Assembly: GCA_017608305.1 (NCBI GenBank)
Contig: JAFCGC010000009.1
Coordinates: 1-44,661, forward strand
Origin: Candidatus Pacearchaeota archaeon
Lineage (GTDB): Archaea > Nanobdellota > Nanobdellia > Pacearchaeales > GW2011-AR1
Reading direction: 5' to 3'
DNA length: 44,661 bases
Part shown: piece after piece, positions 2,376 to 20,148 of the stretch
Layout of the letters: the number at the start of each line of letters is the position of its first letter
How positions within the stretch are numbered: position 1 is the stretch's first letter
Position numbers and translations under genes: made by a program
The notes under the pieces: model-generated
Told to the model about the DNA's origin: nothing
What the model saw: the letters and a program-made list of their open reading frames with translations, nothing else
The model's database searches: none

Positions 2376-3230
2376 TCACTTCTCACCTGTCCAGTATTCT
2401 AAGTTAGGTATATTAACTTCAATTTTTTTTGCTTTGCAATATCCTCGTGTGAGTAGATAAAAAATAACTCCTAAACTTTTTGGGCTTTTGTTATTTCCAA
2501 TTATAATTTGATCTGCTCCTTTTGCAAAATTATTTGTGTCACAAACCATCAATACTTTTTTGTGGACTATTAGAGTATCCTTTAAGGCATTTTTATCAAG
2601 CCAATGATCTGTAATTATTGTAAGTTCATTTTCAAAAAAATCTGGGAGAGTAAGATTAGTTAAAACTCCTGCAGGATATTTTTTAGTAAATACTCTTATT
2701 CCAGTAAGTTCACTAAACATTTCAGCAGGTTTCCATCCTGCTTGTCTTTTGCACACAAGAATAATGTCTTTTACATCAAATTTACTCAAATATTCAATAG
2801 CTTCTTTTAATTTTTCATCAATTATATCTGTGTTAAAAATAGCCAATCCATCTGCTCTTCTCCTATAGACAAATTTCTTCATACTAGGGGTCACAACCCT
2901 TGTTCCAAGATAAATTCCTGCTTTGACATATTCTTCAAGAGGAACAAGCATATCTGTTTTTTTCTTGATCTTGACTTGCTCTTTAAGCTCTTTTGTTGTG
3001 GTAACATCAACTTTTTTAGATAATTTTTTAGCTTTTTCTAAAAGAATTTTTTTCAAATCTTCTTTAGAAGGTGTTTCTTTAGTTTGACTTTTAGGCGAAC
3101 TAGTAAGAATATCTATGTCTTCCTTTTTAGATTTCTCTCTTTTTGGTTTAGTCTCTGTTTCTAAAGATTCTTTTTCTGCTTTTTTCTCAAGCTCCTTATC
3201 TGGAATTTTTTCGATTTTATCTTCAACCAT
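2376..3230 (-). CDS. rpsB: 30S ribosomal protein uS2 with ~95-aa charged N-terminal extension
   Basis: LVPLEEYVKAGIYLGTRVVTPSMKKFVYRRRADGLAIFNTDIIDEKLKEA... typical archaeal S2 core. Confidence 0.93.
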   Translation of the reverse strand: MVEDKIEKIPDKELEKKAEKESLETETKPKREKSKKEDIDILTSSPKSQTKETPSKEDLKKILLEKAKKLSKKVDVTTTKELKEQVKIKKKTDMLVPLEEYVKAGIYLGTRVVTPSMKKFVYRRRADGLAIFNTDIIDEKLKEAIEYLSKFDVKDIILVCKRQAGWKPAEMFSELTGIRVFTKKYPAGVLTNLTLPDFFENELTIITDHWLDKNALKDTLIVHKKVLMVCDTNNFAKGADQIIIGNNKSPKSLGVIFYLLTRGYCKAKKIEVNIPNLEYWTGEK

Positions 3231-3584: not shown

Positions 3585-4793
3585 CTATTTAAAATTTTTC
3601 TCAATCTCAATAAGTCTTTTTATCTTAACCTCTCTTTCTTTCCCACTTATGCCACACTTAAAAAAATCAGCTTGAAAGCCAAATGCCAAATCAGCTAAAA
3701 TTGTTTCCCCTGTTTCCCCACTTCTATGGGAAAAAACAATTTTAATATTGTTCTTTTTTGCTAATTCACAAACTCTTTTAACCTCTATCAAAGAACCACA
3801 CTGATTAGGTTTAACTATGATAGCATTAATACTTTTTTGTTTAATTGCTTTTTCAAGTCTTTTAGAATTTGTTACAGTTAGATCATCTCCCACAATAAAT
3901 TTTTTAGGAAATTCTTTTAAAATCACAGCAAAATTTTCAAAGTCTTCTTCACCAAAAGGGTCCTCTATATAAGTCAAATTAAAATTCTTAATTAAATTTT
4001 TTAAATACCCTATTTGCTCTTTGTCTGTTCTTTTTAGTAAAGGGTTTTCATAATGAAATTTTTTTCTCTTATAGAAAGTCGATGCAGCAACATCTAACCC
4101 TAAAGGCAATTTTGATTTTTTTAAAATTTCTAAAACTTCTTTTTCATTTAAGGCAGTTTCCCAGGCATTTTCATCATTTTTTTTAGATTTAAATTTTTTA
4201 TCTGTTTCCTTTAAATCTTGTTCAAGAATTTTTTGAGTTTTTTTGTTTATTTCAAATGCTTCTCTAACCGATTTTGTACTTGGAATTAATAAGAATTCTT
4301 GGAAGTCAGGTTTTTTTCCATCAGTTAAATCAGAATGTTTGCCTCCCCCAATACAATTTCCAACCAATCTAGGAAATTTTCTGGCATTAGGATTTATTAA
4401 TCTCCAAATGTCTTCTTTTTTGTTCTTTCGTTCTACATTCTTGGAGGATGAGTGAGAAGAATTAAACTTCTCGCTTGCCATGGCCTTTAAAATAGCAGAT
4501 TCTAAAGCAATAAAAGTATTGGCCCCAACATGTCTATCTAAAATATCTTCAACTCTTCGTAAATCATCAAATTTATCAAGAGACTCTTCAGAAAAATAAT
4601 CCTTGAATTTTTTTAGGGTTTTAATATCATTCTCAAGATTTTTTTTATAAGATTTTTGTTCATGTTTTCCTGTTGATTTCCCTGTGGGAGAACTAGCACT
4701 GAATTTGCCCACATTAGTATTAATAGTGACTTCAATTGTTTTTTCCTTACGAGAATCAAAAATAGCTTTTGCATCTACACTCTTTATCTTCAT
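3585..4793 (-). CDS. eno: Enolase (divergent)
   Basis: SPTGKSTGKHE, GGGKHSDLTDGKKPDFQEFLLIP, LGLDVAAS, YIEDPFGEED, GDDLTVTNSKRLEKAI, VKPNQCGSLIEV, SHRSGET motifs. Confidence 0.88.
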   Translation of the reverse strand: MKIKSVDAKAIFDSRKEKTIEVTINTNVGKFSASSPTGKSTGKHEQKSYKKNLENDIKTLKKFKDYFSEESLDKFDDLRRVEDILDRHVGANTFIALESAILKAMASEKFNSSHSSSKNVERKNKKEDIWRLINPNARKFPRLVGNCIGGGKHSDLTDGKKPDFQEFLLIPSTKSVREAFEINKKTQKILEQDLKETDKKFKSKKNDENAWETALNEKEVLEILKKSKLPLGLDVAASTFYKRKKFHYENPLLKRTDKEQIGYLKNLIKNFNLTYIEDPFGEEDFENFAVILKEFPKKFIVGDDLTVTNSKRLEKAIKQKSINAIIVKPNQCGSLIEVKRVCELAKKNNIKIVFSHRSGETGETILADLAFGFQADFFKCGISGKEREVKIKRLIEIEKNFK

Positions 4794-17004: not shown

Positions 17005-17076
17005 ATGGTAAAATCCACATACTTAAGCAACCATATTGGCGAAGTAATCGTAAGAATTTGGAGTTGGAAATGGTGA
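17005..17076 (+). CDS. Candidate 23-aa micro-ORF overlapping the mre11 start (MVKSTYLSNHIGEVIVRIWSWKW)
   Basis: ATG 17005 lies ~20 nt after TATA-like TTATAAAC (16981-16988); its stop TGA overlaps the mre11 ATG (ATGGTGA). Confidence 0.25.
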   Translation: MVKSTYLSNHIGEVIVRIWSWKW

Positions 17077-18098
17077 AATTTGCACATATGGCAGATATCC
17101 ACCTTGGTGGATGGAAACAACCAGAACTTCAAAAACTTAATTTTGAATCTTTTAAAAAAGCATTAGATATTTGTATAAATGAAAAAGTTGATTTTGTTTT
17201 GATATCTGGAGATTTGTTTGATTCTGCTTACCCTTCAATAGAAGTTCTAAAAGTTGCAGATTTTGAAGAAAAAGAAAATGAAATTCTTTTAAATCCAATT
17301 ATTCATGAAGGAATTGCTCTTTATGGTTATCCTGGTAAAAAATCAGGATTAGAAATTAATGATTTAAGAAAAGTTAAACTAAATCAAGCCCCTGGAATGT
17401 TTAAGATTCTTATGCTTCATACAACTCTAGACAAGGCAAAAGGAACCCTTCCAATAGATGCTTTAGAAGCAGACCTCTTACCTAAAGTAGATTATTATGC
17501 CTTAGGCCATTTACATATGGATTTCCAGTATGAAAATTTTGTTTACCCTGGACCTTTATTTCCAAATAATTTTCAGGAGTTAGAGGATTTACAACACGGT
17601 GGCTTTTACATAGTTCACAATGGACCACATAATTCTTTCAACAGAATAAAAGTTCCCATAAAAGAAGTTGTTTCATTTAATATAGAGATTAATGATGCTC
17701 TTGCTGCAACAGAGAAGATAATCTCTGAATTGGAACAAAAGGATTTAGAAGACAAAATTGTTCTTTTGAGATTAAAGGGAGAATTAGAAAAAGGAAAAAA
17801 TTCAGATATAAGATTCAACCAAATAGAAGAATTTGTTAAACAAAAAAAAGTATATTTTTTATTGAAAAATACACGTGATTTAAAAACAAGAGAATTAGAA
17901 TTAGAAATTGATGTTGAAGATACAGGAAATATGGAAGAAGAAACAATAAAGATTTATTCAGAAGAAAATCCTTCTGGTTTTAATGATCTTATTTTCCAGT
18001 TAATAAATTCTTTTGCGATTGAAAAACAAGAAGGAGAAACAACCGACAATTTTTCAAATAGGTTGTTAGAGGAAGCAAAAAAAATTTTGAAGTTTTAA
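17070..18098 (+). CDS. mre11: Mre11-like DNA double-strand-break repair phosphoesterase, apparently lacking motif III
   Basis: MVKFAHMADIHLGG (motif I), ISGDLFDSAYPS (motif II), LMLHTTLD, YYALGHLH; followed by rad50. The ORF track starts at TTG 17058; ATG 17070 is more likely. Confidence 0.88.
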   Translation: MVKFAHMADIHLGGWKQPELQKLNFESFKKALDICINEKVDFVLISGDLFDSAYPSIEVLKVADFEEKENEILLNPIIHEGIALYGYPGKKSGLEINDLRKVKLNQAPGMFKILMLHTTLDKAKGTLPIDALEADLLPKVDYYALGHLHMDFQYENFVYPGPLFPNNFQELEDLQHGGFYIVHNGPHNSFNRIKVPIKEVVSFNIEINDALAATEKIISELEQKDLEDKIVLLRLKGELEKGKNSDIRFNQIEEFVKQKKVYFLLKNTRDLKTRELELEIDVEDTGNMEEETIKIYSEENPSGFNDLIFQLINSFAIEKQEGETTDNFSNRLLEEAKKILKF

Positions 18099-18099
18099 A

Positions 18100-20148
18100 A
18101 TGCTTTTTAAAAAAATTAAGCTAAATAATATTAGGAGTTATGAAAACGAAGAAATAGATTTTTCAAGAGGATCTACTTTACTTTCAGGAGATATTGGATC
18201 GGGTAAGACTTCAATTCTGTTAGCAATTGAATTTGCTTTATTTGGATTACAACCAGGTCAGAGGGGAACTTCCTTGTTAAGAAATGGGAAAAATAAAGGG
18301 GGAGTTGAGATGGTATTTGAGATAGAAGGAAAAGATGTTCTGATCGAGAGAAGTTTGAAAAAAGCAAAAACTGTCTCACAAGATTATTGTGCAATAACTA
18401 TTGAAAATGAAAAGAAAGAAGTATCTGTAACAGAATTAAAAAATAAAATTTTAGAATTATTAAATTATCCAAAAGAATTTACTAAAAAACAGAATTTATT
18501 ATACAAGTTTACAGTTTATACTCAACAAGAAGAAATGAAACAGATTATCTTACAAGACCCTGAAACAAGAATAAACACTCTTAGGCATGTTTTTGGAATA
18601 GATAAATACAAGAAAGTTCTAGAAAATGTTTCAATCGTTGCTTCAAAAATAAGAGAAGAAAAAAGAATGAAAGAAGGAATCACTGCTAATTTAGATCAAG
18701 ATAAGGCAGATATTGTTGTTAAAGAAGATGATCTTGAAACAAAACATTCTAATTTATCTTCAATTGAAAAAGAGTTCTTTTTAAGAAAGGAGGAAAGAAA
18801 AAAAATACAAGAAGAACAAAGTGGGATTTCAGAGAAAATACAAGAGAAAAAAGAATTAGAACAAGAAGTAGAAAAGATAAAAATAAGAGCTTTAAATAAA
18901 CAAGAATCAATCTCAAATAATTTAAAATTAATAGATCGATTGAATAAAGAAGTTGAAGAGATAGATGAAAAAAAATTTGAAGAATCTCAAATTCCTAGGC
19001 TAGAAGAAGATTTAGATTTGTTAAAAAAACAAAAAGAAGAATTAAATGAAAAAAATTTAAACCTAACAACACAAATTAATTCCCTAGCTCTTAAAAATCA
19101 AGAAAATGAATCTCTGAAAATGAAAATATCAACAATTGATATTTGTCCAACATGTTTGCAGGATGTTGATTCTGTTTATAAGAGTAATGTGGTTAACAAG
19201 TTTGATTCAGACACTTCAAATAATGTGAAACAAATTGAAGAATTAGCCCTTGAAAAAAAACTTGTGAGAGAAAATATAAATAAATTAGACAATGAATTGT
19301 TTGAAAAAGAAAAACAATTAGGAGATTCAAAAATCTTAAAAATAAGAATTCAAGGGATTCAGGAAAAAAAGAAACAAATAGAGGAAATAATAGAAACAAA
19401 TCAATTGTTTGAAAAAGACATCGCAAGTTTGACCCAACAAATTGATAGTCTAAAGAATTCTATTTTTGAATTAAGTAAATTTGATAATATTTTTGAAGTA
19501 AAACAAAGAGAATTAGATGAAGCCTTAAAGCAAGAAAGAATAGTTGAAATAAAAATAGCAGAATTAAAAAAGGAGATAGAAGTTTTTTCTAAACAAATAG
19601 AAGAATTAAAAGAAAGAATAAAAAAGACAGAAGAGGTTAGAAAACAACTAAATTATTTGAATGAATTAGAAAATTGGTTATCTAAAAAATTCTCTACTCT
19701 TATTTCCTTTATAGAAAAAAATGTTATGGTTAAACTTAAATCAGAATTTTCTAAACTCTTTGCAGAATGGTTTGCAATGCTTGTTTCAGATAATTTTAAT
19801 GTCATGCTCAGAGATGATTTCACTCCAGTAGTTGAACATCAAGATTATGAAATAGATTACTCTTATCTTTCAGGAGGAGAAAGAACTGCTATTGCTCTTG
19901 CTTATAGGTTAGCATTAAATCAAGTCATTAACTCTTTATTGAGTAAAATAATGACAAAAGGAATTGTGATATTAGATGAACCTACAGATGGATTTTCTGA
20001 ACAACAACTAGACAAAATGAGAGAAGTCTTAGAACAATTAAAAGTTGAACAATTAATAATCGTGAGTCATGAACCTAAAATTGAAGGGTTTGTGGAAAAT
20101 GTAGTAAGGTTTAAAAAAGAGGACGGGATTTCTAGGAAAGTGAGTTAG
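18100..20148 (+). CDS. rad50: Rad50 SMC-like ATPase with zinc hook
   Basis: LNNIRSYENEEIDFSRGSTLLSGDIGSGKTSIL Walker A; CPTC hook; YLSGGERTAIALAYRLALN signature; VILDEPTDGFS Walker B. Confidence 0.96.
   Translation: MLFKKIKLNNIRSYENEEIDFSRGSTLLSGDIGSGKTSILLAIEFALFGLQPGQRGTSLLRNGKNKGGVEMVFEIEGKDVLIERSLKKAKTVSQDYCAITIENEKKEVSVTELKNKILELLNYPKEFTKKQNLLYKFTVYTQQEEMKQIILQDPETRINTLRHVFGIDKYKKVLENVSIVASKIREEKRMKEGITANLDQDKADIVVKEDDLETKHSNLSSIEKEFFLRKEERKKIQEEQSGISEKIQEKKELEQEVEKIKIRALNKQESISNNLKLIDRLNKEVEEIDEKKFEESQIPRLEEDLDLLKKQKEELNEKNLNLTTQINSLALKNQENESLKMKISTIDICPTCLQDVDSVYKSNVVNKFDSDTSNNVKQIEELALEKKLVRENINKLDNELFEKEKQLGDSKILKIRIQGIQEKKKQIEEIIETNQLFEKDIASLTQQIDSLKNSIFELSKFDNIFEVKQRELDEALKQERIVEIKIAELKKEIEVFSKQIEELKERIKKTEEVRKQLNYLNELENWLSKKFSTLISFIEKNVMVKLKSEFSKLFAEWFAMLVSDNFNVMLRDDFTPVVEHQDYEIDYSYLSGGERTAIALAYRLALNQVINSLLSKIMTKGIVILDEPTDGFSEQQLDKMREVLEQLKVEQLIIVSHEPKIEGFVENVVRFKKEDGISRKVS

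Follow-up and report, generated by a model that had tools for sequence, protein, structure and literature searches.

An in-frame deletion of the motif III segment in the mre11 gene of an archaeal MAG, a candidate recent nuclease-null allele

The stretch of DNA examined here, referred to as the window, spans 44,661 nt and belongs to an archaeal MAG (G000; 720 kb in 40 contigs, 84% complete) whose related records are mostly labeled Candidatus Pacearchaeota or Nanoarchaeota. An mre11 gene encoding 342 aa occupies positions 17070-18098 of the forward strand and carries an internal in-frame deletion of 132 bp. Its ATG lies at 17070 (MVKFAHMADIHLGG) and its stop codon at 18098, as had been proposed in an earlier, sequence-only reading that described this open frame as Mre11. 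The ORF and its start (MVKFAH) are common to the window and its relatives, the protein matches the NCBIfam model Mre11_Pyroc (E 1.1e-17), and identity to Pacearchaeota orthologs reaches up to 74% outside the gap. The orthologs in two of these genomes, G110 and G002, are located in the same gene neighborhood. The match to the Pfam Metallophos profile is confined to profile positions 2-53.

A full-length rad50 gene (18100-20148, forward strand; 682 aa) begins 1 nt past the mre11 stop codon. Its product carries Walker A and the zinc-hook motif CPTC and matches NCBIfam Rad50 models, and the Rad50 proteins of relatives are 677-695 aa long, mostly 681-683. Mre11 is conserved through to its C terminus in the family alignment, where it retains a helical segment (18042-18095, forward strand; helix 325-340 in the structure model) that we take to be the Rad50-binding region. 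The ~84% complete genome was searched for another Mre11 or SbcD, and none was found. The other PF00149 matches in the genome were named by inspection as a small YfcE-like phosphoesterase (L031), an Icc-like protein (L032), DP1 of DNA polymerase D (L033), and a secreted phosphatase-like protein (L034). RadA has one match in this genome, and no match to NurA was found in the part that is available. A few relatives carry a second, divergent Mre11/SbcD-like gene (G007:C14:325-906, G129:C37, G183:C5, G011:C2). A separate oddity is a contig of G141 (C19, L193) that has a full-length rad50 without an adjoining mre11, in a neighborhood unlike that of other family members; chimerism of the contig or a rearrangement may account for it.

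Most of the Mre11 active site can be recognized in the window. Motif I (D9 and H11 in DIH; 17094-17102, forward strand) is invariant in the family alignment and aligns with the N-terminal DIH of P. furiosus Mre11. Motif II (GDLFD, with metal ligand D48; 17208-17222, forward strand) falls in columns of which G47, D48, F50, and D51 are invariant, and the same holds for H117 and T118 of the HTT motif (17418-17426, forward strand) and for H147 and H149 of the GHLH motif (17505-17516, forward strand). Motif III, G[N/S]HD, is not found in the window's Mre11; the segment that carries it, present in all relatives, has been deleted. Thus, the alignment bore out the initial impression that motif III is absent and the other four motifs are kept, and all six other active-site residues are still present. 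Motif III reads GNHD in P. furiosus Mre11, whereas it is GSHD in the window's archaeal family; to judge from the aligned family members, having serine where P. furiosus has asparagine is normal for this group. The deleted segment contains the histidine that aligns with P. furiosus H85.

Intact family members, represented by the reference P0001 from G007, are 386 aa long, and the gap in the window's protein covers reference residues 62-105, or exactly 44 codons. In relatives these codons read ETF...IPCFIIAGSHDYSVSGKTFLDVLEKAGFCKN. The join lies at 17252/17253 (forward strand), between IEVLK and VADFEE, where alignments were made to 93 distinct relatives. The window reads IEVLK/VADFEEKENEILLN where L036 reads IEILKETFAEFRRLKRAGIPCFIIAGSHDYSVSGKTFLDVLEKAGFCKNVADFEEIGDKIILN, and on the right flank CKN-VADFEE in L036 corresponds to VADFEE in the window, so that both flanks remain in register. 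Every one of the 93 relatives aligns through the deleted region except G054, which nevertheless keeps GSHD. This means that the gap is neither a chance finding nor an effect of alignment.

The junction had originally been placed near 17250-17253, which proved accurate, and the loss had been put at about 45-50 aa, which was slightly high. An AAGTT repeat proposed to flank the junction fared less well. The first of its copies sits in sequence that has been kept, the second exists only through the join (aaa/gtt), and we therefore reject this pair as a repeat of the deletion-generating type. In relatives, microhomology at the join amounts to at most ~1 nt (TTAAAAG/AA... versus ...AAAAAT/GTTGCA), and the longest other match is a 5-nt TAAAA that is out of register. 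Slippage between repeats found in relatives (LKE...LKE or VL.K) was also considered, but its products would not match the join. A search of the ~84% complete genome for the missing segment did not find it; the best match (E 0.06) falls in an unrelated ORF resembling GTPases and translation factors and was attributed to chance.

Structure models indicate what the protein would lose. In the model of an intact relative (L109; pLDDT 88.9), the elements lying within the deleted region or reaching across its edge are a helix (57-72), a strand (77-81), the GSHD motif (82-85), and a second helix (93-99). The greater part of helix α2, the strand β3 that bears motif III, and helix α3 fall within the deletion, and this unit is absent from the model of the window's protein. 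The latter has a pLDDT of 87.3 and keeps the remaining elements, with a mean of 47 over residues 51-60; such high confidence partly reflects the input alignment and is no proof of folding. The fit to P. furiosus Mre11 (3dsd) is poorer for the window's protein (TMt 0.57, E 6.9e-11) than for the intact one (TMt 0.72, E 1.5e-18), and the fold is probably impaired as well.

The Mre11 proteins of P. furiosus (1ii7/3dsd) and M. jannaschii (3auz/3av0) share with the window's protein the calcineurin-like phosphoesterase domain with motifs I, II, HTT, and GHLH, the capping and C-terminal regions, and the position of rad50 directly downstream. Unlike them, the window's protein lacks the α-β-α unit bearing motif III. 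The closest functional parallels are point mutants of the motif III histidine. P. furiosus Mre11 H85S has neither exonuclease nor endonuclease activity (PMC8824468), and the H84Q form of E. coli SbcD is deficient as a nuclease (PMC6265447). Because such mutants are inactive or deficient, the window's Mre11 has almost certainly lost nuclease activity, provided that the sequence is correct, and its Mn2+-dependent endo- and exonuclease activity is predicted to be absent. The likeness has a limit, in that H85S and H84Q each change one side chain, whereas the window's protein is without 44 core residues and its folding may fail too.

Despite this loss, the remainder of the gene bears no mark of decay. 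Constraint was assessed among 63 genomes with both mre11 and rad50, using columns whose residue is conserved in 95% or more of the remaining genomes. Outside the gap, the window's Mre11 departs at none of 74 conserved positions (family mean 2.4%), and its Mre11/Rad50 terminal-branch ratio is 0.98 against a median of 0.96. These values indicate that selection on mre11 was normal for almost the whole length of its branch. Accordingly, a long-standing pseudogene was rejected. The pattern would be expected if the deletion is young, if the sequence is wrong, or if the protein has been conserved for other reasons since the deletion.

Losses of this kind appear to be rare. In a survey of the family, the deleted region was matched in 168 of 181 genomes and Mre11 in 169 of 180. 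Low-scoring cases were inspected, and most end at contig ends while some carry insertions; the only deletions among them are in G054 and G015. Seven genomes whose mre11 is cut by contig ends (G045, G052, G078, G093, G170, G186, G190) were left out, as was G122, which has frameshifts in both mre11 and rad50 that could reflect poor sequence or decay. Motif III is present in every other family genome of the survey whose contig spans the region intact, and an order-level search of 132 genomes, mostly of the same family, revealed no further in-frame loss of the motif among the matches listed. Likewise, when the 93 distinct sequences are compared with P0001, only the window and G054 show deletions of 4 aa or more, with G015 read in two frames.

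The two other cases resemble the window in that their deletions affect overlapping residues of Mre11 and their rad50 genes are intact as far as sequenced, which in G015 means readable to residue 635, where the contig ends. They differ in what was lost. The G054 protein (JAFCFX010000003.1; L085/L116) is missing 15 aa in frame (residues 64-78, IEILKEN/IIAGSHD) but keeps GSHD. In G015 (L106, G015:C16 1501-2584), ~20 aa are missing after GDL (about residues 50-69), and the gene is also frameshifted. Both proteins are similarly unrelaxed at conserved positions (1/95 and 2/89 departures). No Mre11 or Rad50 match was found in G103 or G124, which belong to the genus of G015. Insertions of 16-30 aa occur at position ~111-116 of Mre11 in G013 (L088/L164; e.g., GSPESSFEEGSAESPALAGSRALSGVSLGEAPE) and G042 (L084/L125), in a loop just to the right of the site of the window's deletion.

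On balance, we consider it marginally probable that the window's mre11 is a recent nuclease-null or null allele produced by deletion. According to this proposal, the loss of 132 bp from mre11 would be a recent in-frame event private to one Pacearchaeota-type MAG, taking one α-β-α unit from the phosphoesterase core. The di-metal center would then not be built and nuclease activity would be lost, while the downstream rad50 would stay in frame and translatable. Such a loss-of-function or nuclease-null allele could have reached fixation in the sampled population or still be polymorphic there, and it would be too young to carry marks of relaxed constraint. What we observe is the deletion as assembled, with its exact extent, its restriction to this genome among the relatives, the intact rad50, and the lack of relaxed constraint; nuclease loss, presence in a living population, and the youth of the deletion are what we infer.

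Several results favor this recent deletion: the exact 44-codon gap with both flanks in register, its absence from the other surveyed genomes, the structural unit missing from only one of the two models, the lack of relaxed constraint, and a join without a collapsible repeat. That the motif III histidine is essential (PMC8824468) is in keeping with the proposed effect. Mutants of H. volcanii in mre11 rad50 are viable, with a growth cost of ~1% per generation in competition (PMC2700283), so a null mre11 allele could persist for a time. Against the proposal, the frame is kept, which would happen by chance in one case of three, and everything outside the gap is fully conserved, as would also be expected of a protein still in use. 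Furthermore, the overlapping deletions in two other MAGs might mean a shared artefact or a hotspot. If real, the locus offers a naturally occurring nuclease-null form of mre11 next to an intact rad50 in a minimal archaeon, and it would bear on the need for Mre11 catalysis, as opposed to a structural role, in reduced archaeal genomes.

The chief alternative is that the organism's mre11 is intact and that 132 bp were lost through a chimeric read, gap-closing, or a path through a strain mixture. We regard such an assembly or library artefact as a real possibility, although an unlikely one. The MAG is fragmentary, the remainder of the gene looks fully functional, and two other fragmented drafts, G015 and G054, are missing residues at overlapping positions, out of frame in one case. 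However, the loss in the window is exactly in frame, and no repeat spans the join, which makes a repeat-collapse (k-mer/de Bruijn) error unlikely. In addition, the window is colinear with one G110 contig over ~49 kb, and among its other well-conserved genes (at least 50% identity) none has a deletion of at least 15 aa. No split matches betraying frameshifts were found among the well-conserved window genes either. The absence of comparable losses indicates that general assembly decay is not responsible. If the sequence proves to be an artefact or merely a young null allele, then it offers only a caution for reading single MAGs.

It is improbable that the locus encodes a nuclease-free Mre11-Rad50 complex in which Mre11 is kept by selection as a structural partner of Rad50 for end binding or tethering and ATPase coupling. 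The in-frame loss, the intact Rad50 with its normal evolutionary rate, and the conserved N- and C-terminal regions are all compatible with such a role, and what is left of the domain is for the most part modeled at high pLDDT. There is also precedent, in that nuclease-deficient SbcCD H84Q retains other activities, with ATPase only ~15% lower (PMC6265447). Nevertheless, retention of all six other active-site residues and of every conserved column is unexpected if catalysis has long been dispensable. The deletion also goes beyond the ligands to take two helices and a strand out of the core, worsens the model's fit, and is found in no relative. The sequence-only reading had left a choice between a structural-only complex and a strain-level deletion or assembly collapse. 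Its description of an in-frame loss of motif III from an otherwise intact gene holds, as does, by inference, nuclease loss. Between the options, the lack of relaxed constraint favors a young event or an artefact over a long-established structural-only complex, with collapse at a repeat unlikely.

The least probable account is that Pacearchaeota mre11 repeatedly loses the segment after motif II, by local mutation or by selection for a switched-off nuclease. Deletions of 4 aa or more were found in just three of the surveyed family Mre11 proteins, and these do share residues; random placement of three deletions with these lengths was simulated to give P = 0.014, a post hoc figure based on small numbers. 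The three nonetheless come from different genera, have different breakpoints, and share no repeat; G015 may be a pseudogene or a sequencing error, and G054 keeps GSHD. The broader proposal that Pacearchaeota repeatedly and independently delete the helix 2-strand 3 segment surrounding motif III while keeping Rad50 is highly improbable. If true, repeated deletions would provide Mre11-Rad50 complexes whose nuclease has been switched off in nature and which may retain binding or tethering of DNA ends, and three family members with losses at overlapping residues would make the question of Mre11's role testable.

Two other genes in the window differ from their counterparts in relatives. The product of the enolase gene (3585-4793, reverse strand) has 16 aa inserted near residue 110, where its N- and C-terminal domains meet, and both relatives compared lack this insertion. 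The ORF for ribosomal protein S2 (2376-3230, reverse strand) begins with ~90 N-terminal residues that are without a counterpart in two relatives, representing either a real extension or a wrong start.
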